From the NCBI GenBank assembly GCA_902812405.1, contig CADDZI010000006.1, positions 1 to 64,000 of the forward strand: a stretch of DNA of 64,000 bases. The letters are read 5' to 3'. Positions 28,868 through 41,093 of the stretch are shown in pieces. Numbering within the stretch: position 1 is the first letter of the stretch; each line of letters begins with the position of its first letter. The notes beneath the pieces are model-generated. The model was given only the letters and a program-made list of their open reading frames with translations. It was not told the origin of the DNA and searched no databases. Origin of the DNA: a bacterium. GTDB lineage: Bacteria; Vulcanimicrobiota; Vulcanimicrobiia; Eremiobacterales; Eremiobacteraceae. The position numbers and the translations under genes are program-made.

Positions 28868-28946
28868 GACGCTGCGACGGCTGTTTCGAAGTCTGCCAAG
28901 CCGCTCCTCCACGACATAGGTCACAGACGGGAGGCGTCAGACCGGC

Positions 28947-29045
28947 AAAAACCGCGGCACCCGAAGGGTCCGCGTACCGCTGCTACCTTCCGGTCCTGAC
29001 GGGGTTGGCGGACTTTCGTCGCGCGGGTACCGGTCTTCGCCCCCC
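28947..29045 (-). ncRNA. ffs: Bacterial SRP RNA (4.5S type)
   Basis: The minus strand carries the invariant SRP domain IV: GTCAGGACCGGAAGGTAGCAGC, with the GGAA tetraloop and the asymmetric loop for Ffh binding (around 28982-29003). Flanking arms pair as expected: AGTCCGC with GCGGACC, GTACCCG with CGGGTGC and ACCGG with CCGCGG-type bases, giving one rod of about 100 nt. A T5 run at 28947-28951 marks the likely 3' end. It is the short form lacking the Alu domain. Ends are approximate. Confidence 0.9.
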
Positions 29046-29207: not shown

Positions 29208-29239
29208 CCTCGCGGCTCCCCAATTGTCGGGCCGCGAGG
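29208..29239 (-). terminator. Strong hairpin right after the substrate-binding protein gene
   Basis: Perfect 9-base inverted repeat CCTCGCGGC (29208-29216) and GCCGCGAGG (29231-29239) with a 14-base loop, beginning one base after the stop codon of the upstream-coded protein. There is no U-tract on the minus strand, so it may be a factor-dependent terminator or a 3' stabilising stem rather than a classical terminator. Confidence 0.45.
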
Positions 29240-30226
29240 TCAATGCCGCCCCTCAGGCGGCGGTTTCCCAAATCCGTATCGGCGGTAGGCAGCTTGCGCT
29301 TGTGCCGAGCGCAGATATGCGCACCACAACACGCCCGCCCCGCTATGCGGTGCCGTACGCAGGACACCCGCCGCGTACGTTGCGGTCACGTTATCCGCCT
29401 TCGGAATGGCCACGCCGCCGATCGGATTGCCGGCCGACTCCTGAAAGCGGACTTCGGACGCCCAGGTGACGCCCGCGTCCACCGTTCCCTGCATAATCCA
29501 CATCGGCGTTTGACGGTGATGAATCTGGGTCAAGCGCGTCCGGCCGTCGGCAACCTTTGTCACGTAGACCGCACGATACAGGGCGTCGCCGCCCGCCGCA
29601 CGCAGAGCGGCAGCAATCTGACGGGCAACGCCTTCGTAGCCCGGGTTTGGCATCGCGAGCCGCACGTCGGAGCGGGCAAGATCGCGCAGCGTGCGGATAT
29701 GCCGCGGATTACCGGCATGCACCATCATCGCCAGGCTGTTGGTCGCATACGTCGTGACGTGTGTCACCTCACCTCGCTTTCGCATGGCGGCCAGCGTGCG
29801 CACCCCCGCTTCGTAGACGTCGGGCGCGACGCGTATCGTCAGGTTACCCAGCGTGAGCCGGCCGCCGGCGTGGATCTGGCGTGCCAGAATACCCGGGGGC
29901 AGGCTCTCGTAAAAGATGTGCCCGCGGAAGCGCGGGTATTGCCGCACGAATCCGTCAATCAGTGCCGGCATGACAAAAAACTGGTTCCCGCCGACGAAGA
30001 GAACCAGCATCGCGCCCTCGGGGTTGCCGTGCAGGTCTGCGACGTTGTCGATGTCCGGCACCGCAAACGTTTCGCCTCGATCAAGGGCGGGGTTCATGTC
30101 TCCATCAGCCCACGGCGGAAAGGGCCCCGCGGCAACCGGGGCGCCGAGCACGGCTCCGAAAAGGCAAACCGCGGCGAGGGCCGCCCGTGCCGCTGTACGG
30201 AGGATGGCGCGCTCCACCAGCATCAC
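29240..30226 (-). CDS. Exported substrate-binding protein (ModA/PBP-II-like)
   Basis: A 328-residue protein with a signal peptide (about residues 10-33, cleavage near APVAAG) and a type II periplasmic-binding fold. The block FVGGNQFFVMPALIDGFVRQYP followed by ILARQIHAGG, and later TYATNSLAMMVHAGNP, RTLRDLARSDVRLAMPNPGYEG and VDAGVTWASEVRFQ, follow the layout of molybdate/thiosulfate-type binding proteins (SBP_bac_11-like). No permease or ATPase gene is adjacent. Its GTG overlaps the stop of a DsrE-like exported protein (GTGA), so the two are translationally coupled and probably work together. Ligand unknown; an oxyanion is a guess from the fold family. Confidence 0.75.
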   Translation of the reverse strand: MMLVERAILRTAARAALAAVCLFGAVLGAPVAAGPFPPWADGDMNPALDRGETFAVPDIDNVADLHGNPEGAMLVLFVGGNQFFVMPALIDGFVRQYPRFRGHIFYESLPPGILARQIHAGGRLTLGNLTIRVAPDVYEAGVRTLAAMRKRGEVTHVTTYATNSLAMMVHAGNPRHIRTLRDLARSDVRLAMPNPGYEGVARQIAAALRAAGGDALYRAVYVTKVADGRTRLTQIHHRQTPMWIMQGTVDAGVTWASEVRFQESAGNPIGGVAIPKADNVTATYAAGVLRTAPHSGAGVLWCAYLRSAQAQAAYRRYGFGKPPPEGRH

Positions 30227-30936
30227 ACCGTGATGTAGGTGTAGCGGCCGTCGCTTTGCAGCAGTGCGATGGCCGCGACCATCGCCGCAACCACCAGAAC
30301 ACCGGGTTGCACGTGGGCCAGCATGTCACGGACGATCGTCTCCGGCTCTTGGGTCAAGCCGAAGCGGTGGATGAGAGCCCGGGCTTGTTCTTCGGTTGCC
30401 GTGTGGCAGCTCAAAAAGACGACACCGCGGCGCTGCAACGCCTGCATGCTCGTGTCCTGAAAAAGGGATTGCATGCTGTCGGGATCGTTGCTCGGATAGC
30501 GGCCGTCGGCAACCGGACTTGCATAGAAGGGGTTGCGCGTTGCGGGTTGACCGGTATGCGGGTCCGTGACACCTAGCCATTCACCGATGCGATACCTGCT
30601 CCAGACGGTGTCATCGAAGTTGAGCATGTTGGCAGGCCCGTGGAGGGCACCGACCACCTGGATCTGGTCGGCCGGTATGCCAAAACTGAAGTGCAAGCCG
30701 TTGAGAGAGTTCTTCATATTGTTGAGGAACTTGCCGTCGCCGATCTGGGTCACGTCGTAGACTTGTTTGACGCGTGCCCCGGCGTGGACGAGCCTCTCAA
30801 ACGGCTCGGGGTTCCAATCGTGCGTCGTGTACACCAATTGAGCGTCTGCTCTTTGCGCCGCCCTGGCTGCGAGGCCGACCCCGATGGCGCCGGCCACGGC
30901 GCGGCCAACGAAATGCTTGCGAGATAGCTTCTGCAC
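30223..30936 (-). CDS. Exported DsrE-family protein with Tat-like signal
   Basis: A 237-residue protein. The N-terminus MQKLSRKHFVGRAVAGAIGVGLAA reads like a twin-arginine signal with Lys replacing the second Arg, with cleavage near RADAQ. The body follows the DsrE/DsrF plan: an early THDWNPEPFERLVHAG strand-helix, QVVGALHGPANMLNF (compare the family VVxHGxA block), a single Cys in GVVFLSCHTATEEQA, and the terminal PGVLVVAAMVAAIALLQSDGRYTYI, equivalent to the usual end of this fold. DsrE-like proteins handle sulfur or serve redox roles in the cytosol; exported members are poorly known. Coupled by GTGA to the following binding-protein gene. Family assignment by pattern, moderately sure. Confidence 0.7.
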   Translation of the reverse strand: MQKLSRKHFVGRAVAGAIGVGLAARAAQRADAQLVYTTHDWNPEPFERLVHAGARVKQVYDVTQIGDGKFLNNMKNSLNGLHFSFGIPADQIQVVGALHGPANMLNFDDTVWSRYRIGEWLGVTDPHTGQPATRNPFYASPVADGRYPSNDPDSMQSLFQDTSMQALQRRGVVFLSCHTATEEQARALIHRFGLTQEPETIVRDMLAHVQPGVLVVAAMVAAIALLQSDGRYTYITV

Positions 30937-30979
30937 GGGCGTGCTCCTTTGGAAGAGTCATGGAACCGGGTCGGGGTGG

Positions 30980-31067
30980 CGGAGAGGGAGGGATTCGAAC
31001 CCTCGAGACGCTTGCGGCGCCTACACGCTTTCCAGGCGTGCCTGTTCGACCACTCCAGCACCTCTCC
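30980..31067 (-). tRNA. tRNA-Ser (anticodon GGA)
   Basis: Class II tRNA: acceptor GGAGAGG/CCTCTCC, anticodon stem CACGC/GCGTG with loop CTGGAAA giving GGA, long variable arm, discriminator G. Confidence 0.95.
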
Positions 31068-31083
31068 ACGAGACGGAATCCGA

Positions 31084-31170
31084 CATGCGGCAAGCGACCT
31101 TTCCGGTGTCCAGGCTGTGATGTGGTAACGCGTTCGGCGGACGGCCGCATACGGCGGGCGACCTTTCGGC
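31084..31170. repeat. Imperfect 23-base direct repeat upstream of tRNA-Ser(GGA)
   Basis: CATGCGGCAAGCGACCTTTC at 31084-31103 and CATACGGCGGGCGACCTTTC at 31148-31167 differ at only three or four positions and are 64 bases apart. They lie in the gap between tRNA-Ser and the fibronectin-III gene, upstream of the tRNA on its own strand. Confidence 0.5.
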
Positions 31171-31272
31171 TGCAGGGCCCGCCGCCCTACCGGCAGCGCG
31201 TTGAAAGCCGCGGATCAGCCCCGCCTTCCCCTACCGGCCAGACCGGCCGTGACGACCCCACGCCACGCGAAC

Positions 31273-33279
31273 CTACGGCAGGGTAACTTCGGCCGAAGCG
31301 GACGGCTGACCCAGCGCGCCGTTGGCGGCTTCGTAGACGATGCGATACAGGGCTCGCATTCGTCTGGGAGGATTCACGTCCAAAGCCTTCGTCCCGAGGA
31401 CCACGGGCCCGGCGATGACAAGCCAAGTCCCCTTTCCGCCCGCCTGGCGTTCGACGACGACCGCCAGCCCGTGTGGGATTTTGCCGAACGTCACTTGCAC
31501 GTGGGCAAAAGGCGTCGCCCGATAGGACACGCCCGGAGCGTCCGGGACCGGGAGAGGTGGGCTCCCAACGTGGACCACAACCGGACGTGTGGGTTGACTT
31601 CGGTTGCCGTAGCGGTCAACAGCGACAAAGCGATACCAATAATCTTGTCCCGGCTCAACGTTGCGGTCGACGTAGACGCGGGCGCTGCCCGGCAGCGGCA
31701 GCCCCATGACGACGCCCAGACGGCCCTCCGCGCCGGACCGCAACGCAATGATGTGCGTGGTCTTGCCGGCCGGTGCGGCCGCCGCCAGACCGATCGTGAC
31801 GATACCGTTTCGACCGCTCGCCGAGCGCACGTATGGCATGTCGGGCGGCGTCGTGTCGAGCAAAGTAACGGCGACGGTTTGGCTGGGTGAGGATTCCTTG
31901 CTATCGAATCCTACTGCTACCACGCGATACATGAGCGTGCCGGTCGTACCCAAGCCGACGAAGTCGTTGTAAAAAGGCGCGGGTGTCACCTTGGCGTTCA
32001 ACGTTTCCCACCGTGGGTCGGTGTCGGTGCGGCGCTCAATGAAGTACCCGGCGATGGCATAGCGGGCCGGCTGCCACGTCAAGCGGACTCGTGAACGGCC
32101 CACCTGGGCGTGCAGCCCAGCGACCGGTGCCGGAGCCGCAGGGGATGTCGGCTGCGCGGCAACGGGAAGGCTGGGGGGTCCAAGGTCTCCCTGGGGGCTG
32201 ACCGCGAGGACGCGGTAGTAGTAGACCGTTCCTCCCCGCAGGCCGCGATCCACGTAGGTGCCGGTCGTCGGCCCCAGGGGCTTGATCGTGAGCGGGACGT
32301 AAGGCCCGTCGTAGAGCGTTGACCGCTCGACGACGTAGCCCGCCGTGTGCCGGTTCTCGCGCGGCCGCCAGTGTAGCGTGTTCTCCTCGTGGCCGGCCGT
32401 CGCGCTGACGAAGACCGGGGCGATGGCCTGCATATCGACTGCAAAGAACGACGTTACCGCAGCCTGGCTGCGCCGTCCGAACGGATCCAGAGCATAGACC
32501 CGATACGTCAGCTGGGTGTCGGTCGGTGCCAGCGCATCGATGAACTCGGGCTGATCCGGCCGCCAGCGGACGGTCAAGACGAGCGGCCTTTGCGTCACTG
32601 AGACCCCACGCTGCCCGCCGCCGTCGCGCTCGATCGCATAGGCAATCACGGGTGCCGTGCGGTTGAGCTGCGGTAGATTCCAAAACAAGACAACGCCGCG
32701 CATGGTGGACGTGCCGTGCAGACCGCTGACGGCTGGCGGGAGGGGGGTCGGCACGAGGGGATTGACCGGCGGTCCATCGATGACCGGCCCCGCCGGGGAA
32801 CCGGCGGAATTCAGACCCACGGCGCGATAGCGGCGCTCGCCGCCCGAGCGATCTATTGTCGTCAACGTCAGGCCGGCCGCTTGGGCGTAGGTCTGATTGG
32901 TGAACGCCTTGAGCCCCAGCACGCCGTACAGATTGGCCAGATCTGCGGACCGTGTTGCACGTTGCTGGCTGGGGAAAAAGTCGCGGATACTTTGCTGGTC
33001 TGCAGCCGACAGTCGTGCCAGCGCGGCAGGGTTGCCCAGGCTGACCCGCGTCGCAACGACGTGCGGGCTGCCCGCTCCCAACTCCAGGATTTGCCAACCC
33101 CCGTTCGGCATGCGGCCGACCGGAGGAAACCACAGCAAGCGGATGGTGCCGTGTCCATCGGAGACGGCCAGCATGCCGCCGCCGGCCGCGCTGTCGGCAC
33201 GCGCCGGCACAGCCGAACCAAAGAGCCAGACCAAGCAGGCCACGACCGACAGAATGCCGGCACGGACGCGACGCTTCAC
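31273..33279 (-). CDS. Secreted fibronectin type III repeat protein
   Basis: About 668 residues from GTG 33279; the preceding frame to GTG 33348 is possible. A signal peptide (basic VKRRVR, hydrophobic core, cleavage near VPARA) is followed by an N-terminal region of about 170 residues without clear family, then four to five FN3-like beta-sandwiches marked by repeated elements such as VRLTWQPARYAIAGYFIERR, LHWRPRENRHTAGYVVERS, YYYRVLAVSPQGDLG and YWYRFVAVDRYGNRS. These are typical extracellular adhesion or spacer modules. No catalytic domain, LPXTG or type IX tail is seen. It is the last of three consecutive surface-protein genes, 91 bases after the giant protein. Confidence 0.85.
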   Translation of the reverse strand: MKRRVRAGILSVVACLVWLFGSAVPARADSAAGGGMLAVSDGHGTIRLLWFPPVGRMPNGGWQILELGAGSPHVVATRVSLGNPAALARLSAADQQSIRDFFPSQQRATRSADLANLYGVLGLKAFTNQTYAQAAGLTLTTIDRSGGERRYRAVGLNSAGSPAGPVIDGPPVNPLVPTPLPPAVSGLHGTSTMRGVVLFWNLPQLNRTAPVIAYAIERDGGGQRGVSVTQRPLVLTVRWRPDQPEFIDALAPTDTQLTYRVYALDPFGRRSQAAVTSFFAVDMQAIAPVFVSATAGHEENTLHWRPRENRHTAGYVVERSTLYDGPYVPLTIKPLGPTTGTYVDRGLRGGTVYYYRVLAVSPQGDLGPPSLPVAAQPTSPAAPAPVAGLHAQVGRSRVRLTWQPARYAIAGYFIERRTDTDPRWETLNAKVTPAPFYNDFVGLGTTGTLMYRVVAVGFDSKESSPSQTVAVTLLDTTPPDMPYVRSASGRNGIVTIGLAAAAPAGKTTHIIALRSGAEGRLGVVMGLPLPGSARVYVDRNVEPGQDYWYRFVAVDRYGNRSQPTRPVVVHVGSPPLPVPDAPGVSYRATPFAHVQVTFGKIPHGLAVVVERQAGGKGTWLVIAGPVVLGTKALDVNPPRRMRALYRIVYEAANGALGQPSASAEVTLP

Positions 33280-33369
33280 GGGGATGAGCTTCCCCGGCCA
33301 AGCCGGCGGCGCTTGTTGCGCGACGGAAGCGCTGTCACAGCTGTTCACGGCGGTTCGAACTCCACGGAC

Positions 33370-36300
33370 TCATAGGTGGACGCAGAAGTGAATGTCAGGC
33401 AAAGGCCACGGCGTGCCGATAGACGCACACCCGGTGACGTCAAGAGGCATAGCCGAAGCCTTGATGTCAATCGACTCCGAAACGCTGAAGCAGCCGCCTG
33501 CGATGCACGCGCCGCATTGTGCGGTTTCCGAAAACTCCCCGCTAACGTGCGGTTCCGGTGTTATCGTCAGGTCAACGTCTCCCTCGAAGTCGATGTAGGC
33601 CGATACGACGCTTGAGTCGCCGACGTCAAGATTCATCGTCGCACTGCCCCCGACGTCCACGCCTTGATTGGAGAGCATGAGGTAGCCGTCGACGTCGCCG
33701 ACGAGCAGGTGCGCCTGCACCCGCGGGCCGCTCTTCTGACCGACGTAGATATGCCAGTCGCCTCCTCCAAAGTGGAGGCTGGCGGCGTACTGACTGGAAC
33801 CATATTTCGGGCCCGGAATCTCCAGGTAAGCGATGTTGTTGAGCGGATCGGGTGCGTCGAACTTTCCCTCAAGACCGCCGTCGAAATTTCCTCCGCCAAA
33901 CTGAAAGTAACCGTCGATCAAGGGGTTGCCGCTGTGGTCGGGACTGGCGAACCAGGCCGCGTAGTCCATGCGAACACTCGGACTGCTCCCCAACGTGATC
34001 GTGAAGTTGCCGTCGAGGAAGTAGGTAAAGCCGTTATCCACCGATCCCAATTGCAGGCCCGCCAGCAGCGTCAGGTCGGAGCTCGGGTCGAACGTCGCCT
34101 TCGTAACGTCTTCGGGATTCTTGAGGTGGATGTGGTAGCCCGCCCCGCCGCCGATGCGGTAGAGGCTCATCGCTGCGGGGATGATGACGACGCCCGTACC
34201 GGGAAAAGACACGTCGACGCGAATGGCCCAGTAATCCGTGCCGCCCTGGTAGCCCAGCAGGAACTGCGCCTTGACCGGCGGGCCGCCGAAGTTCGACAGG
34301 TCGACGTCGCCCGTGTACTGGTCGTCGTTTGCCGTTTGCCGGTACACAGGCCGGATGTGGGAATCCGACGCCGGCTGACCGGCCGGGAAGGCCACCTCCT
34401 CATCGAAGGTGTTCATGCTGGGCGGCGAGACGACGTACTGCGTGCCCTCTTGGGAGAATCTGTAGTTGACCTGGGTCCCAGCCGCGGGCATGTAGGGACT
34501 CGACGAGAGGTGGACCGTCACCGCAAAGGCGACATCCAGCAGGTCGTTGCCGGCCGTCGGAGCGATCATGTGCACCGATTGCAGCTGAACCGGCGTACTG
34601 CCGAACATGGACGATCCCCCCAAGGGGATGTCTGTTTCCGTCGTTCCTCCCGCAAATGACGGCCGTCCTGCCAAGGTGAAGAACATGTGCGGGACATCCA
34701 CGTGCGCGAAGTGGTTGGGACCGTTGGAGAAATCAAAGTGCCCGTCTCCGCCTACCACCCAGCCTAAACCCTGCTGGGCTTGGAACTGCAGGTTATCGAC
34801 GGCAATGCTGATCTGTCCAAACTGCCGGCTCACCGGAGCGGACGACAGCGACAGGTAGGCCGTCCCGCTGCTCACGAGCGTTCCCGTTCCGGTTAGGTTG
34901 GCGTCGATGAAGGGAACGTGGACGAGCATGTTCGGGTATGTCGCCGTGAGTTCGGACTTGGTGACGTTGACGGTGGCGTGTGGGATGCTCACGTATCCGT
35001 TCTCGACGTCGGCTCGGAAGTTGATGTCGCGGTCGAAACTGCCCTCGAGACCCTCGGCATCCACGTACCAGCCGTTGACCTGCGCCGTGCTGTTGCCGAA
35101 GCCCAGCGTGAAGAGCGTCAGCTGCGCCTGTCCCAGGTCGATATTTTTTGTCAGGTCAAATGTGACGTTGTTCGAGGCAAGGAAGAACTGGCTGTGCCCG
35201 ATTTCGGTCGCAGGGAGCACCGCATGCTTGTAGACCCACGTCCCGTCGGGAAACACGGGAGCGACGAGGTTCTTCCATGCCGGCGCATGCGGCAGGTTCG
35301 TGATGATGCGTAGTTCCTGGCTCGTCAGCGACAGATTGAGGCCCATCAACATGTCGTAGTCGGGTTTGCCGTCCGTTTGGCCGTCGAGGGATGCCACGGA
35401 AGCGGTCACGCCGACGAGATGGAGATTTTGCGCCTCCCCAGGGGAGCCGACGTGCAGCCGGGCTTGCGCAACGTTGAGCCCATCCGGCACGTGCCAATTC
35501 TGAAAGTTGACGCGCACGGGTATGGCTTCGCTGGCGCCGCCGCCGACCGGAAAGTGCAGTACCAGCGAGCCGTGGCCGCTCCATAATCCCGGGCCGCTCG
35601 CGGTGATATTGTGCTGCAAGCCCGAGATCTCAAACGTACCTTCTTTGGTTGCAAACAGAAACGTACACGGCATTTTTGGGTTCGCTGGTTGCGCATCGTA
35701 GAAAGCGGGTCCCGACGTCACCGCCCCACCGGCGCGCCGAGGCGGCGCCCTCAGCGGTGCTTGTGCGACCGTCAGACCACCCGACGACCCGATCATAGGG
35801 TGGCTGGCAGCGGGTGCGACATACGCAACGAGAGGGACACGGTGAGATCCCTGCGTGAAGGGAGAGAGGAAACCCACGCTGCTTCCGAGCGCGGACGGTG
35901 ACACTCGTCCAGCTGCGAGAAGGACATCCAGGTTGGGGGCGCTCGCTGTCGGCGGCGCCACCTCGACCTCGACGACGACCCGGTGGTGTCCTGGCTGAGT
36001 GGTCAGGGTTTGCCGGGGGTACAACACCTGGGAGTCCACGTTCGGTGGACCGCTGCAGCCGCCGCGGCCACAGCCGTGACGCGGGTGCGAGCTCAAACCC
36101 GGCACGGCGTCGGTCTCCAGCTGCTGACCGTCGAGCAGCCACCTTGCCTGCGCATCGCCCGTCCCGTAGTAGCGCAACGTCGCCTGCGCCGTGACATCGT
36201 CGTCACACGTGCTGCACACGCCGTACACGGATCCGGCAGCCATTGCCGTGTGAGGTGCGCTGACGCGATGATTGGGAAAGTCCGTGATCGCCACGCTCTG

Positions 36301-38316
36301 GAGATGGAGCGGACCTTCGGCCGCCGCATCGACGCCCTCGTCGATGGTCACTTCCTGGCAGAACAGCTCGTAGGCTCGCGCGGCCACGTCGGCTGCACTC
36401 GGCAGCGTCTGCCGCAGGGCACCGGTGAAACGCGGTGGTGCAGACTTCGGGTCTGATCCGGCTACCGCTGACACGGAAACGAGCCGAAAGTACGGGTTGG
36501 CGGCAGCCAACGCCGCACCGTCAATGGACGCCCCAAGCTCGGTCGGCGACAGACTTTGCGCGTCGGACTCTGCAATTTGAAAGATGCGGATCGCGTAGCG
36601 TCCGGTTACGGCGTAGCGATGCATGTTGACGTTGACGCCGTTGGAGTCATGGAATTGGTCGGCGTTGAGGTTGAGGGACGCATGTGCCGCCTGGGGCAAG
36701 GTCAAAGCGGTGGGGTGCGGCTGGCGCTGCGTGTACTGACCGCCATAGGCAGCTTGTGCGGGTACCGCGCGCAAGGGCTCAACCGTTCCGTCGCCCCAGT
36801 CGATGAAAACGTTGTCGAAATCCGCTTCCAGCATCGGCGGAGCGAACGAGTTGGGAACGTTCTGCGTGACCACATTGGGGTGAGAGAGATACGGAGAACC
36901 GGAGAGATCGAGGTTGCCGTACACGACAAAGGGGTCGCCGATGTAATTGGTCACATCTGTTGCGCCATGGGAAGTCTGTAACGCAAGATTTTCGGCAACC
37001 AATCCGCCCCGGCTTATGGGGCAGGCCCCGAGCCCGTTCGCGTTGTCTGGCTTGCCCAGCGGCCATTGATCGGACTTCTCCACCTCCACCGTTTTGGTCT
37101 GCGCCGGCTGGTTGGGATCCGGGGCGAACTGTTTGTAGCCGCGCACCTCCCATAACAGGTTGGCGTCCTCGAGGTACGGCGCGATATTCTTCGTGACGCC
37201 GCTCGGCAGTACGTTCGCTCGGCTCACGTCGACGGCCAGCTGCCGGGCTTGTGCAAAAACCAGGCGATGCCGGCGCTGCCAGGCGTACAGCTTCTGCAGG
37301 ACGGTTTCGAGGAAGGCCGGGTCGGGAGCGTAGTAGGTCTGGGTCTGATCCAGTCTCTTGGCGAGCAGCAATTTCCCCTGTGGCGTCAAAATACGTAGCT
37401 CGAAGTAGTCCGCAGTTCCGGGATTTCGCTCATGCCAGGAAAACACGGCCGAGTCGTCGAGCATCGGCGTGCCGTAGTCGCAGGTAAAACCTTCGCCGCA
37501 TTCCTGCTTGCCCCACTGGGGTGTGACGAGGTCGATTCTTCCCTCCACGAACGTCAGGCCGAGGCGCGGAAACTTCACGACCGGGAGCGGGCCGCTGTAA
37601 TAGCCGGTGGCAGTTTGCACGCCAGCCGCGTACGCATAGGCGATGGGCGGGGGCGGGGTAGCCGTGGCGCCCGTCAGGTACGAGGGCGAGAGCACCGCAA
37701 GACTCACGCTGTGCTGGCCGCTGTTGGGTAGCGGCAGCGTAAGAGTCAGACGCTGCGCGCCCCCCGTGGCAACACTCTGCGTTGCCGTCTGGATGGGATT
37801 ACCGTCCAGCTGCCACTGAACGATGAGCGTGCCGCTGCCCGACGTCTGCACGACGGCGACGGGGTGAGGCGGAGGTGCCGACCCGGATAGACTCAGGGAC
37901 GTCTGGCCGTTCGGCCACGACAACGCGATGGAGGTGACCGCAAGGCCGCGCGACGGTGCGGGCGCCGGCGTGGGCGTTGCCGGAGCGACGACCGTCAAAC
38001 GCAGGCGGGCAACGACTTGCAAAATGAGGCCCGACGAATACAGCACGAGAACGTACTGTCCGGCCTGAGCGTAGGAATGGTACACCGGTACGTTGGCTTG
38101 CACCGTGGCCCGCTGGGAACCATCCCCAAAGTCCACGAGCAATTGGCCGACGGGAGTACCGGGGCTCGGGCGTGCCGTGATGGCGACGGGCTGTCCCACG
38201 AACGCCGGATTGGGCGTTGCGCTCAAGCTGAAGTCGGCTGCGGCCGATGAGACGGCCAGGACGAGCGCGCCGACAGCGGCCAGGACGATCAGACGGACGG
38301 ACGTTGCATGTCTCAT
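33370..38316 (-). CDS. Giant secreted beta-rich PKD-containing protein
   Basis: About 1648 residues from ATG 38316, giving a standard signal peptide (MRHATSVRLIVLAAVGALVLAVSSAAA); ATG 38385, which overlaps the upstream stop (ATGA), would add 23 residues. An N-terminal PKD-like domain carries LLVDFGDGSQ, and a second, FIDWGDGTVEP, lies in the first third. The rest is mostly repetitive beta-strand sequence rich in Gly, Asn, Asp, Val and Ser, for example GDGHFDFSNG, DGYLMLSNQGVDVGGS and YIDFEGDVDL, with low Lys. The last 80 residues hold five cysteines (CGAC, GGC, TGC, FC), plausibly disulfide-bonded. No enzyme motif was found. I recognise no named family; a structural or binding role at the cell surface is inferred. 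Confidence 0.85.
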   Translation of the reverse strand: MRHATSVRLIVLAAVGALVLAVSSAAADFSLSATPNPAFVGQPVAITARPSPGTPVGQLLVDFGDGSQRATVQANVPVYHSYAQAGQYVLVLYSSGLILQVVARLRLTVVAPATPTPAPAPSRGLAVTSIALSWPNGQTSLSLSGSAPPPHPVAVVQTSGSGTLIVQWQLDGNPIQTATQSVATGGAQRLTLTLPLPNSGQHSVSLAVLSPSYLTGATATPPPPIAYAYAAGVQTATGYYSGPLPVVKFPRLGLTFVEGRIDLVTPQWGKQECGEGFTCDYGTPMLDDSAVFSWHERNPGTADYFELRILTPQGKLLLAKRLDQTQTYYAPDPAFLETVLQKLYAWQRRHRLVFAQARQLAVDVSRANVLPSGVTKNIAPYLEDANLLWEVRGYKQFAPDPNQPAQTKTVEVEKSDQWPLGKPDNANGLGACPISRGGLVAENLALQTSHGATDVTNYIGDPFVVYGNLDLSGSPYLSHPNVVTQNVPNSFAPPMLEADFDNVFIDWGDGTVEPLRAVPAQAAYGGQYTQRQPHPTALTLPQAAHASLNLNADQFHDSNGVNVNMHRYAVTGRYAIRIFQIAESDAQSLSPTELGASIDGAALAAANPYFRLVSVSAVAGSDPKSAPPRFTGALRQTLPSAADVAARAYELFCQEVTIDEGVDAAAEGPLHLQSVAITDFPNHRVSAPHTAMAAGSVYGVCSTCDDDVTAQATLRYYGTGDAQARWLLDGQQLETDAVPGLSSHPRHGCGRGGCSGPPNVDSQVLYPRQTLTTQPGHHRVVVEVEVAPPTASAPNLDVLLAAGRVSPSALGSSVGFLSPFTQGSHRVPLVAYVAPAASHPMIGSSGGLTVAQAPLRAPPRRAGGAVTSGPAFYDAQPANPKMPCTFLFATKEGTFEISGLQHNITASGPGLWSGHGSLVLHFPVGGGASEAIPVRVNFQNWHVPDGLNVAQARLHVGSPGEAQNLHLVGVTASVASLDGQTDGKPDYDMLMGLNLSLTSQELRIITNLPHAPAWKNLVAPVFPDGTWVYKHAVLPATEIGHSQFFLASNNVTFDLTKNIDLGQAQLTLFTLGFGNSTAQVNGWYVDAEGLEGSFDRDINFRADVENGYVSIPHATVNVTKSELTATYPNMLVHVPFIDANLTGTGTLVSSGTAYLSLSSAPVSRQFGQISIAVDNLQFQAQQGLGWVVGGDGHFDFSNGPNHFAHVDVPHMFFTLAGRPSFAGGTTETDIPLGGSSMFGSTPVQLQSVHMIAPTAGNDLLDVAFAVTVHLSSSPYMPAAGTQVNYRFSQEGTQYVVSPPSMNTFDEEVAFPAGQPASDSHIRPVYRQTANDDQYTGDVDLSNFGGPPVKAQFLLGYQGGTDYWAIRVDVSFPGTGVVIIPAAMSLYRIGGGAGYHIHLKNPEDVTKATFDPSSDLTLLAGLQLGSVDNGFTYFLDGNFTITLGSSPSVRMDYAAWFASPDHSGNPLIDGYFQFGGGNFDGGLEGKFDAPDPLNNIAYLEIPGPKYGSSQYAASLHFGGGDWHIYVGQKSGPRVQAHLLVGDVDGYLMLSNQGVDVGGSATMNLDVGDSSVVSAYIDFEGDVDLTITPEPHVSGEFSETAQCGACIAGGCFSVSESIDIKASAMPLDVTGCASIGTPWPLPDIHFCVHL

Positions 38317-38381
38317 CGTTCGACGAAAGCTCCCGTGTGCTCGAGCAGGCCGGCGGCCGGCATTTCCGCAATCGCCGATCT

Positions 38382-40709
38382 TCATATGTTGACGTCGAGC
38401 CGCGCCCGGAGCACGGCTGAGGTCCCGTTCTTGGTCGGCGTGTAAAAATCGGTGTGATGGTTGGTCTGGGCGTGAAGGCCCAGACTCACGTGAGGTCCCA
38501 GGTGGTACGACAGCATGCTGCCCAGGTAGAGATCCCGCGTTTTGGCCGACACGGCGTTCTGATTGAGGTTGGCCGCCGACAGGGAGAGCTCAAAGCCGTG
38601 CGCGGCTGCGAACGCGTTGGCGGGCGGATTCGGGGATTGGCCGGCACGCCCGGTGCCAATCGGCAGCGAAAGAACAATCGATTCGCCCAGTGTTGAGGAC
38701 GTGGTGTTCCCCTGATTTTGCGTGCCGTTGAGGCCGATGTTCAAACTCCCGGCACCCCGCGTCCACGTGTACTGCAGCGTACCCGTCCGCGTCACCCCCG
38801 CGTCTGTGGGCTGCAGGGCGTCGCGCAGCGTCGCCAGCGACGCCGTCAGTGCGAACGAGCCCGACGTCCCCGGCGTCGCAGCCGAGAACGAATAACTGTG
38901 GGTGCTGGTTTTGCTGGTTGCGGACGCCGACTGGTCGCCCGTCTCGCTCAAGCTCAGGTTCAAACCCCCGGCAGGTGCCAGCGTGAGGATGGCACCCTGC
39001 TGCGCATCCGAGAACGGCGATGAACGCTTCTCTTCGTGAGCGTAGGTAAGTGCCAAGGTGGCGCTACGCGTGAGGCCCAACGTCGCCTGCCCGCTGCCGC
39101 CCACGCTGTCGGAGGTGGCGCCCACCCCGTTGCCGGTGGCGAAGTTCGGTCCAAAGTTGTGGTATTCGAAGCTGAGAGTGGTCGCACCGTTGCTGTAGCC
39201 CAGTTGCGCCTTCTCGGCTGCATCTTTCGTTGTCGGGCCCCCGGTCAGTTCCGGACTGGCGCCGGATTGGGCGGCGCCGAGCGCCAGTGTGATGTGCTGC
39301 GCAAACGTCTCGTCGAACTCCACGCCACCCGCCCGTGCATCCAGAGGCTTCGTCGCACCGCCGGGTACGAATGTGTACGGATCGTCGATGTTCTGCAGGA
39401 ACGTCATGTGCAGGATCTGAGCGGCCGAAAACATTCTGGCCACGTTGACGAGGTAGCCGTCCTGAGCACCAAACACCGGTCCGGCGAGCTGCGGGTACCC
39501 CGCTGCAGCCTCGTAGCGCCAGCCGGAAGGGCTGACGACGGCGTCCAGGCCGCGCAACGACTCACCTCCGGAAAAGAGCAGGGAGGGCAGCTGCGCAGTG
39601 ACCGGACCCAGGCTGTCCTGGTAGTGGGGAGTTGACGATACGCCGGGATTGGGCGCAGGAGACGCCTGCGGCGGCGGCTGCTCATTGGGCGAAGTGACTT
39701 CGGGCGTGCCGGGCACGAGGGTCAAGAGCGGATCGATGCGCCGAGATGTGGGGTTGATTGTCGAGGCTGCGGTGAGCGTGTACGTCAGATTCTGAAATGC
39801 CAGCGCCAGGTTGGCGTTGAGGTTCGCATTTGCGGCGCTGCTGGGAATGGTTCCCGCCCCTCCGCCGACGGAAAATGAGGGTCCGGCTTCCAGCGATCCC
39901 GTCGCGTGGATGGTTGCAGAGATGGCAGGCTGCGGATCAGGCCCGCCGACGACGACGAGAGGAGCGGCCTGGCCCACGGCCACCGTACCGCCCACGTCCG
40001 CCGTCCGGATGTACGCGCGGACGCGGTACGCGCCGCGTGCGTCGCTGGGTACCGTGAACGGAATGTTGGCCGTTGTCAATGCGGCGCTGACGTTCGTAAC
40101 CGCGAGTTTCCCAACGACCGGCGGCAGCGCCACCGGGTCGCCGCGGGCGACAAGCCTGCCCTGCGCATCCAGCAGGTCGATGACCACGACCAGCTGCGCC
40201 GGCGGTGTATAGGCGACCCCGGTGGGGGTTTCGATACGATAGGTAATTTGAATATTTGTGCCGTCACCGGCCAGCACCGGCGACACGAGGGGCAGAGTTG
40301 AGAGGATGTGGCCGTGCGGGACGCGCGGAGTAGGCGCCGTCACGAAGATGTTGAGGAACACCGGCCGGGTCGCCGTGGACGTAAAGACGGCGGTATACAC
40401 CCCGGGCGTGGTGTACACGTGACCAACTCTGACTGGAAAGACCGGTCCCACAGGCACCGGCGCACTGCCGTCACCGAAGTTTACACTGCCCGTCACAGGT
40501 GCTGGTGCACCCACAGCCGTGACGTTGACGGTGAACGTCACCAGCGTGCCTGCAAGCGGCTGCGGATTGGAAACCGACAGACTGGCGGTTGCGGCACGGG
40601 CGGCGGCTGGAAAGACGGCCAACAAAAACCCGGCCCACGCGGCAAAAAGAAATGCCTTGCACGTGGGTGGAGAGGAACAGCGACCTCTCCGGCCATCCAC
40701 GCCGCGCAC
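38382..40709 (-). CDS. Secreted PKD-domain protein with C-terminal beta-barrel-like region
   Basis: A 775-residue protein starting at a GTG, with a signal sequence (about residues 18-40, cleavage near AAARA). Residues about 43-130 form a PKD-like domain (SVNFGDGSAPVP...HVYTTPGVYTAVFTS); 140-250 a second Ig-like domain. The remaining ~500 residues alternate short amphipathic strands with turns (LNANLALAFQNLTYTLTA, YSNGATTLSFEYHNFG, GSLNIGLNGTQNQGNTT) as in outer-membrane barrels, though the final residues (LRARLDVNI) lack the usual terminal aromatic. It would suit an outer-membrane anchor or exporter for the giant protein encoded next, whose start overlaps or closely follows this stop. Family not recognised. 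Confidence 0.8.
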   Translation of the reverse strand: MRGVDGRRGRCSSPPTCKAFLFAAWAGFLLAVFPAAARAATASLSVSNPQPLAGTLVTFTVNVTAVGAPAPVTGSVNFGDGSAPVPVGPVFPVRVGHVYTTPGVYTAVFTSTATRPVFLNIFVTAPTPRVPHGHILSTLPLVSPVLAGDGTNIQITYRIETPTGVAYTPPAQLVVVIDLLDAQGRLVARGDPVALPPVVGKLAVTNVSAALTTANIPFTVPSDARGAYRVRAYIRTADVGGTVAVGQAAPLVVVGGPDPQPAISATIHATGSLEAGPSFSVGGGAGTIPSSAANANLNANLALAFQNLTYTLTAASTINPTSRRIDPLLTLVPGTPEVTSPNEQPPPQASPAPNPGVSSTPHYQDSLGPVTAQLPSLLFSGGESLRGLDAVVSPSGWRYEAAAGYPQLAGPVFGAQDGYLVNVARMFSAAQILHMTFLQNIDDPYTFVPGGATKPLDARAGGVEFDETFAQHITLALGAAQSGASPELTGGPTTKDAAEKAQLGYSNGATTLSFEYHNFGPNFATGNGVGATSDSVGGSGQATLGLTRSATLALTYAHEEKRSSPFSDAQQGAILTLAPAGGLNLSLSETGDQSASATSKTSTHSYSFSAATPGTSGSFALTASLATLRDALQPTDAGVTRTGTLQYTWTRGAGSLNIGLNGTQNQGNTTSSTLGESIVLSLPIGTGRAGQSPNPPANAFAAAHGFELSLSAANLNQNAVSAKTRDLYLGSMLSYHLGPHVSLGLHAQTNHHTDFYTPTKNGTSAVLRARLDVNI

Positions 40710-41093
40710 CGTTCCACGGCCGGTGCCGGGTCCCCTCCGGGGTGATACGGCTCACAGACGCGAGCACCGTCACCGGGAATCGGTGCATGGAGAACCGGCA
40801 CAATTCAGGCTGCCATGCGGCCAGAGACAACCGCCGGCCACGCCGGACAGTCATGATCCCGGGGAGGATGGCGCACAGTGAACCAGCCCCAATCGATGCG
40901 ATGATGCACGATCAGGCCCTTCTCGATATCCATCATCTCCATGAGATCAACGAGATCAACCTCTCCATCCGGTGTTTGATGAACCGGACTGCATCGTCGT
41001 TCATGCAGAACCTCTTTCTGTGTCGCGCCCGCTGCTCATCTTCGACATCATGGCGCTGACGCAAACACAAGGCTGACTGACGAATGGAAATGC
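40710..41093 (-). other. 384-base gap upstream of the surface-protein genes; two candidate short ORFs
   Basis: No recognised gene. Two overlapping minus-strand frames are present: 40933-41004 (23 residues, starting MNDDAVRF, preceded by AGAGG with good spacing) and 40805-40942 (45 residues, starting MEMMDIEK), overlapping by 10 bases. A tandem TTGATCTC occurs in this stretch. It may be the leader of the surface locus; no convincing promoter or known riboswitch could be matched. Confidence 0.3.

Follow-up and report, generated by a model that had tools for sequence, protein, structure and literature searches.

A divergent homologue of thiosulfate dehydrogenase paired with a solute-binding protein gene in an Eremiobacteraceae genome, and evidence for its distant relationship to DsrE

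In this study, a window of 64,000 nucleotides (positions 1 to 64,000 of contig CADDZI010000006.1, from a genome of the Eremiobacteraceae) was analysed, in which two overlapping minus-strand genes, A and B, occupy positions 29240-30936. Profile comparison identifies the product of A as a divergent homologue of the tetrathionate-forming thiosulfate dehydrogenase (TSD) of Acidithiobacillus; B encodes a predicted solute-binding protein (SBP). With slightly better than even confidence, we read the pair as a tsd-sbp cassette, which would serve periplasmic metabolism of thiosulfate and tetrathionate by means of Cys177 of A, with B acting as the anion donor. The tsd-sbp pair as such is already known; what our analysis adds is evidence for the DsrE ancestry of TSD, a recurrent linkage of TSD genes with those of TsdA, and a clean insertion site.

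Results

Layout of the gene pair and its expression signals

The features to which the text refers are as follows.
30223..30936, minus strand: ORF A, TSD-type (NF052225) protein, putatively of the DsrE superfamily, predicted to be exported, 237 aa
29240..30226, minus strand: ORF B, predicted exported solute-binding protein (PF13531, SBP_bac_11), 328 aa
30223..30226, minus strand: GTGA overlap between the stop codon of A and the start codon of B, read in the sequence
29208..29239, strand not given: inverted repeat immediately after the B stop codon, which might fold into a hairpin at the transcript's 3' end
28937..29035, minus strand: SRP RNA (RF00169), border of the inserted interval, 3' of B
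30977..31067, minus strand: tRNA-Ser(GGA), border of the same interval, 5' of A, which adjoins the SRP RNA in relatives

ORF A begins with GTG, 5' of which lies the Shine-Dalgarno-like sequence AAAGGAG. The junction of the two genes reads ACGGTGTGATGC, so that the GTG of B overlaps the TGA of A (GTGA), as the initial annotation had stated; an alternative start of B, ATG, lies one codon later and would give the overlap TGATG. No separate Shine-Dalgarno sequence is apparent for ORF B, as would be expected if its translation depended on that of A, and such translational coupling through the overlap is likely. The inverted repeat behind B is not followed by a run of T. That A and B are chance open reading frames was ruled out, since their homologues align along the entire mature proteins and many alignment positions are invariant.

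The leader of A, with the motif SRKHFVG, is Tat-like and bears RK in place of RR; the Tat twin-arginine motif is S/T-R-R-x-F-L-K. RR is present in all seven Acidobacterial relatives of A in the alignment, and RRx with F, M, I, V, L or A as the next residue occurs within the first 90 residues of 18 of 39 A homologues. B starts with a hydrophobic, Sec-like leader. We infer from these N-termini that both proteins are exported, which for A agrees with the earlier proposal of a Tat-like signal.

ORF A belongs to the surroundings of the TSD family

ORF A matched the NCBIfam model of thiosulfate dehydrogenase, NF052225, with an E-value of 1.6e-29 and 103 bits, residues 35-234 being aligned on profile positions 66-257, i.e. 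over the mature length. As the equivalog cut-off of 300 was not reached, A should be regarded as a divergent TSD homologue and not as a certified member. The same model was matched by 39 of 39 aligned A homologues, taken from Acidobacteria, the window's class and plasmids, and all six plasmid homologues that were scanned singly lie above the cut-off (342-418 bits). Seven columns of the 39-member alignment stand out as invariant: N79, W112, Y115, N135, R170, G171 and C177. The last of these is the sole cysteine of A, conserved in 39/39 homologues, 31 of which contain exactly one cysteine.

Neither a CxxCH nor another redox cofactor motif was recognised in ORF A, and no Pfam family scored above its cut-off. 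Matches to a glycosyltransferase and to TauD were dismissed as sub-threshold, confined to single short stretches and not common to the A family. No credible solved homologue of A was found, nor were viral copies in one viral scan. The AlphaFold2 model of A, built on 8 sequences, had a mean pLDDT of 45.8, a quality too poor for judging the fold.

Distant relationship between the TSD family and DsrE

The initial annotation had assigned A to the DsrE family. As a direct assignment this did not stand, since the DsrE Pfam model was matched by none of the 39 A-family members at E<=0.1; a distant relationship is nevertheless supported by profile-profile comparison. When the A family was aligned by hhalign with five PF02635 proteins, it gave a probability of 96.8% and 2.2e-10 (a pairwise E-value, not one of a database search), with similarity over about 115 columns and C177 placed on the conserved DsrE cysteine. 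One of the five, from locus L092, matches MTH1491 (1L1S) at 7e-14. The signal persisted, with varying strength, when the sets were changed: 86.8% and 4.3e-6 against a more varied set of nine DsrE proteins, 1.4e-8 without the protein of L095 (a locus adjoining a TSD homologue), and 1.6e-6 against the proteins of L092 and L097 alone, while those of L069 and L070 alone gave only 12.6% and 0.0023. With the A side restricted to the window's protein and its seven closest relatives the value was 1.5e-5 (3.9e-4 without L095), and with members of the window's class alone it was 2.5e-5. Null controls, ten with shuffled columns and one reversed, returned 0.081-0.75, and the control alignments of SBP and TsdA 0.18 and 0.12, respectively. 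These comparisons support the view that the TSD family of A is distantly related to DsrE and shares its cysteine. Apart from this profile similarity and the shared cysteine, A differs from the DsrE/DsrF superfamily (PF02635; MTH1491, 1L1S) in that it has no Pfam match, is longer, has an insert ahead of the segment with the cysteine, and is predicted to be exported.

It had also been assumed that DsrE proteins are usually cytosolic, which fails in this material: PF02635 proteins with signal-like leaders are encoded in relatives at positions 1345-1860 of L095, 1288-1743 of L092 and 1495-1956 of L097. The L095 gene adjoins a divergent TSD homologue (G034:C8:55917-56537).

ORF B encodes a predicted solute-binding protein that scores below the ModA cut-off

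The second protein had been described as a ModA-like binding protein. Its binding-protein character is borne out by the match to PF13531, SBP_bac_11 (2.3e-40, 139 bits against a gathering cut-off of 25), while membership of the ModA family is not, as TIGR01256 gave 24 bits, far below its cut-off of 62.5; molybdate binding of the ModA type was therefore rejected as a role for this protein. Among solved proteins, the sulfate binders SubI (7.9e-14) and Sbp (1.1e-10) are closest by profile, followed by PEB3 and molybdate binders. The models of sulfate/thiosulfate SBPs, TIGR00971 and NF008106, gave 26 and 29 bits against cut-offs of 155.5 and 308, and B also remained far under the cut-off of CysP. 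Among the residues invariant in 24/24 homologues of B are H236, H237, R238, W255, E258, N279 and Y284. The predicted structure of B (mean pLDDT 48.5) was of unusable quality.

One could suppose that B serves an unlinked ABC transporter, for uptake of sulfate, thiosulfate or molybdate, and that its coupling to A reflects co-regulation only. Membership in SBP_bac_11, the resemblance to sulfate and molybdate binders and 34 PF00005 matches elsewhere in the genome speak for such a role. We nonetheless consider it improbable, given that B scores well short of the cut-offs for ModA, CysP and sulfate SBPs, and given the recurrence of B beside A and electron-transfer genes, and the lack of annotated ABC importer genes in the plasmid neighbourhoods that were read. 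Moreover, the 64-kb window contains no ABC ATPase gene (PF00005), in line with the earlier statement that no transporter genes lie nearby; the sole one listed on this contig, C6:64569-65018, is situated just beyond the window. The proteins encoded around the pair, namely an XTP-diphosphatase-like protein and LepA (both recognised by eye), an M23 peptidase, DUF4446, fn3 and PKD proteins, are housekeeping or unrelated, and neither doxDA or terminal electron-transfer genes nor a TsdA-like gene adjoin A-B in the window.

Recurrence of the pair and linkage with TsdA

Close homologues of A, with 58-66% identity, are present in eight Acidobacterial loci. One of them (L032) is cut off downstream and was left out of the count; among the seven with a readable downstream side, B follows A in six, L029 being the exception. 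A gene of a fused cbb3-type oxidase precedes A in 5/8 loci, and a dihaem cytochrome gene, C, is found downstream in 5/8, the order being cbb3 oxidase-A-B-TsdA-like. The C family is that of TsdA: it matches solved 4wqc at 9.4e-70 over nearly the whole length, and two CxxCH motifs are present in 19/19 members.

Counts of the three families cover 61 genomes, 60 of relatives besides that of the window, with thresholds of E<=9.6e-35 for close A, E<=8.7e-30 for strong B and E<=2.6e-35 for strong C, weaker B and C rows having been excluded beforehand. C lies within 2 kb of 27 of the 33 close A homologues (directly downstream on the same strand in 26 cases, divergent in one), and B accompanies 10 of the 33. 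As 23 of the 33 close A homologues in the window's class have no B alongside, B is not obligatory. Seen from the other side, an A adjoins 10 of the 14 strong B places and 30 of the 35 strong C places. Weaker A homologues (36) are accompanied by B in no case and by C within 2 kb in three.

The arrangement B-A-C is found in nine other genomes of the window's class. A gene of a YeiH-type membrane protein follows the TsdA-like gene in eight of these nine loci (L045-L053), and also at 5135-6508 of L054; the one that was checked is PF03601 (conserved hypothetical 698), and a role as an anion exporter would fit such a protein.

Among plasmid records, A was found in 24 and B in 22; the two occur together in 17, and A lies directly upstream of B in all 17. 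A without B was seen in seven records and B without A in five, one of which, the Komagataeibacter plasmid CP004363, was opened and has a PF02635 DsrE gene before B instead. In a Gluconobacter plasmid the order is A-B-DoxDA, and in a Bosea plasmid genes of an SQR-like oxidoreductase, a cytochrome c and Blh (sulfur transferase/dioxygenase) lie near A-B. On Paraburkholderia and Komagataeibacter plasmids a second extracellular binding protein is encoded beside tsd/sbp (6259-7023 of L069, 8925-9695 of L070).

The adjacency of A and B is thus far above chance: Acidobacteria, Pseudomonadota plasmids and the window's class all show it, which is what the suggested search for co-occurring pairs was meant to reveal. 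The proposal that the pair is sulfur-related also gained ground, both from the TSD match of A and from the sulfur genes that neighbour its homologues.

Insertion site and history in this genome

For comparison, 12 loci of the same family were found through the neighbouring DUF4446 gene, one of them on a contig that was too short. In all 11 readable relatives the distance between tRNA-Ser(GGA) and SRP RNA is 19-179 bp; in the window the two are 1,941 bp apart, with A, B and little else between them. A close A or B is present in none of 13 same-family genomes. In the tree of A the window's protein groups with seven Acidobacteria (95/95), and in that of B with five (98/97). Base composition does not stand out, and no convincing attachment-site repeats were found at the ends. 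A-B is probably a transferred cassette, and the simplest reading is that it came from an Acidobacterium-like donor or is shared with one.

A second insertion at this tRNA cluster is the adjoining region 31067-41092. It measures about 10 kb, encodes an fn3 protein and a PKD-containing protein of 1671 aa, and separates tRNA-Ser(GGA) from tRNA-Ser(CGA); in the 8 same-family loci that show both tRNA genes, the distance between them is only about 150-660 bp.

A TsdA-like homologue is encoded on another contig of the window's genome (G000:C43:14425-15156), with a TauE-type exporter gene upstream. The surrounding locus (L073, G000:C43:7000-15397) contains selA- and selB-like genes, recognised by eye, then genes of a permease, TauE and the TsdA-like cytochrome. 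Further distant A matches in this genome are G000:C1:13357-14055 and C1:124512-124760, the latter short (85 aligned residues). DoxD gave a weak match of 34 bits, and SoxB had no match above the cut-off.

Discussion

The view that such a pair had not been described before had to be abandoned. In published accounts it appears as AFE_0042/AFE_0043 of A. ferrooxidans (PMC2754497), as tsd/sbp (PMC6335251) and as TPY_2171/TPY_2170 of Sulfobacillus acidophilus (PMC5114278). AFE_0042, a Tat signal protein and later TSD, AFE_0043, a periplasmic SBP, and AFE_0044, doxDA, form one operon, named the 'thiosulfate-quinone oxidoreductase complex operon' and reported to reach higher levels on sulfur than on iron (PMC2754497); the names tsd, sbp and doxDA, in two sets, come from a review and the legend of one of its figures (PMC6335251). 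The Sulfobacillus genes TPY_2171-2170-2169, of a Tat-signal protein, a periplasmic SBP and doxDA, were described as strongly co-regulated (PMC5114278). Our pair resembles the A. ferrooxidans arrangement (AFE_0042-0043-0044, and a second set with AFE_0050) in having a predicted exported TSD-type protein followed by a periplasmic SBP, in the order A-B, and differs from it in the score of A below the TSD cut-off, the absence of an adjoining doxDA, the 4-base overlap and the flanking RNA genes. Sulfobacillus, likewise, has a Tat-signal protein and a periplasmic SBP, and differs in that doxDA is present. Both likenesses were drawn through NF052225 and gene order, not through direct sequence comparison.

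In the favoured reading as a tsd-sbp cassette, B would capture thiosulfate (or tetrathionate or sulfate) and present the anion to A. The latter might hold thiosulfate as a Cys177-S-thiosulfonate and condense it with a second thiosulfate to tetrathionate, two electrons leaving via a c-type cytochrome, for which the TsdA-like protein encoded next door to A in relatives is a candidate. The proposed thiosulfonate has precedents in cytoplasmic DsrE3A, reported to form Cys-S-thiosulfonates and to transfer thiosulfate (PMC4175335), and in TsdA, reported to form a Cys-S-thiosulfonate (PMC4423706). TsdA probably catalyses the same reaction as that assumed for A, and its genes adjoin A homologues; by profile the two are unrelated (E 0.12), and A has no CxxCH.

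Several observations count against the cassette reading. A scores well under the TSD cut-off, and no TsdA-like or DoxD gene adjoins it; the genome has a weak DoxD match and no SoxB above the cut-off, and B is not obligatory in the class. The TSD of A. ferrooxidans, about 25 kDa in size, with a pH optimum of 2.5, makes tetrathionate; according to a review, neither ubiquinone nor horse cytochrome c was reduced by the purified protein (PMC6335251). In the Sulfobacillus report, the operon was higher on FeSO4 than on sulfur (PMC5114278).

The strongest rival explanation is that A is not an enzyme and acts as a periplasmic carrier of thiosulfate or sulfane sulfur, its C177 thiosulfonate or persulfide being passed to an oxidising cytochrome of the TsdA or SoxA type. 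Such a role would suit a protein with one cysteine and no recognised redox cofactor motif, whose DsrE relatives are sulfur carriers (among them the thiosulfate-transferring DsrE3A) and whose close homologues in the class so often have a TsdA-like gene within 2 kb. It is set against the report that A. ferrooxidans TSD is an enzyme with an identified gene (Kikumoto 2013, cited through PMC6335251), and against the lack of a cytochrome gene beside the window's copy. We regard the carrier role of A as rather unlikely, while sequence by itself decides for neither enzyme nor carrier. An extension of this idea, which we put forward tentatively and to which we give a similarly low probability, is that Acidithiobacillus-type TSD in general could be a periplasmic thiosulfate carrier of DsrE fold and no dehydrogenase in its own right, loaded by the SBP and holding the thiosulfonate on C177, from which a TsdA- or DoxDA-type partner would extract electrons. 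This would account for the failure of purified TSD to reduce quinone or cytochrome c, and for the presence of two unrelated 'thiosulfate dehydrogenases' in one operon, both in Acidobacteria and in the window's class.

That the pair senses sulfur compounds in the periplasm, as had also been suggested, seems very improbable. Bosea and Bradyrhizobium plasmids do carry two-component genes no more than about 8 kb away from the pair; however, none were recognised beside it in the window, where the sensing role finds no support, and the wider neighbourhood of the pair is metabolic.

Neither a DsrE ancestry of TSD nor its linkage with TsdA turned up in our literature search, which reached few subscription papers, and we do not claim that they are unpublished. 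In a 2024 review, the electron acceptor of TSD is marked '?' in the pathway figure (PMC10859504). The linkage makes a TsdA-type cytochrome a candidate for this acceptor. For the TSD enzyme family, our results point to DsrE as its likely ancestry and to C177 as its likely catalytic cysteine; and the family, known mainly from acidophilic iron and sulfur oxidisers, is now linked to Acidobacteria and to the lineage of the window.
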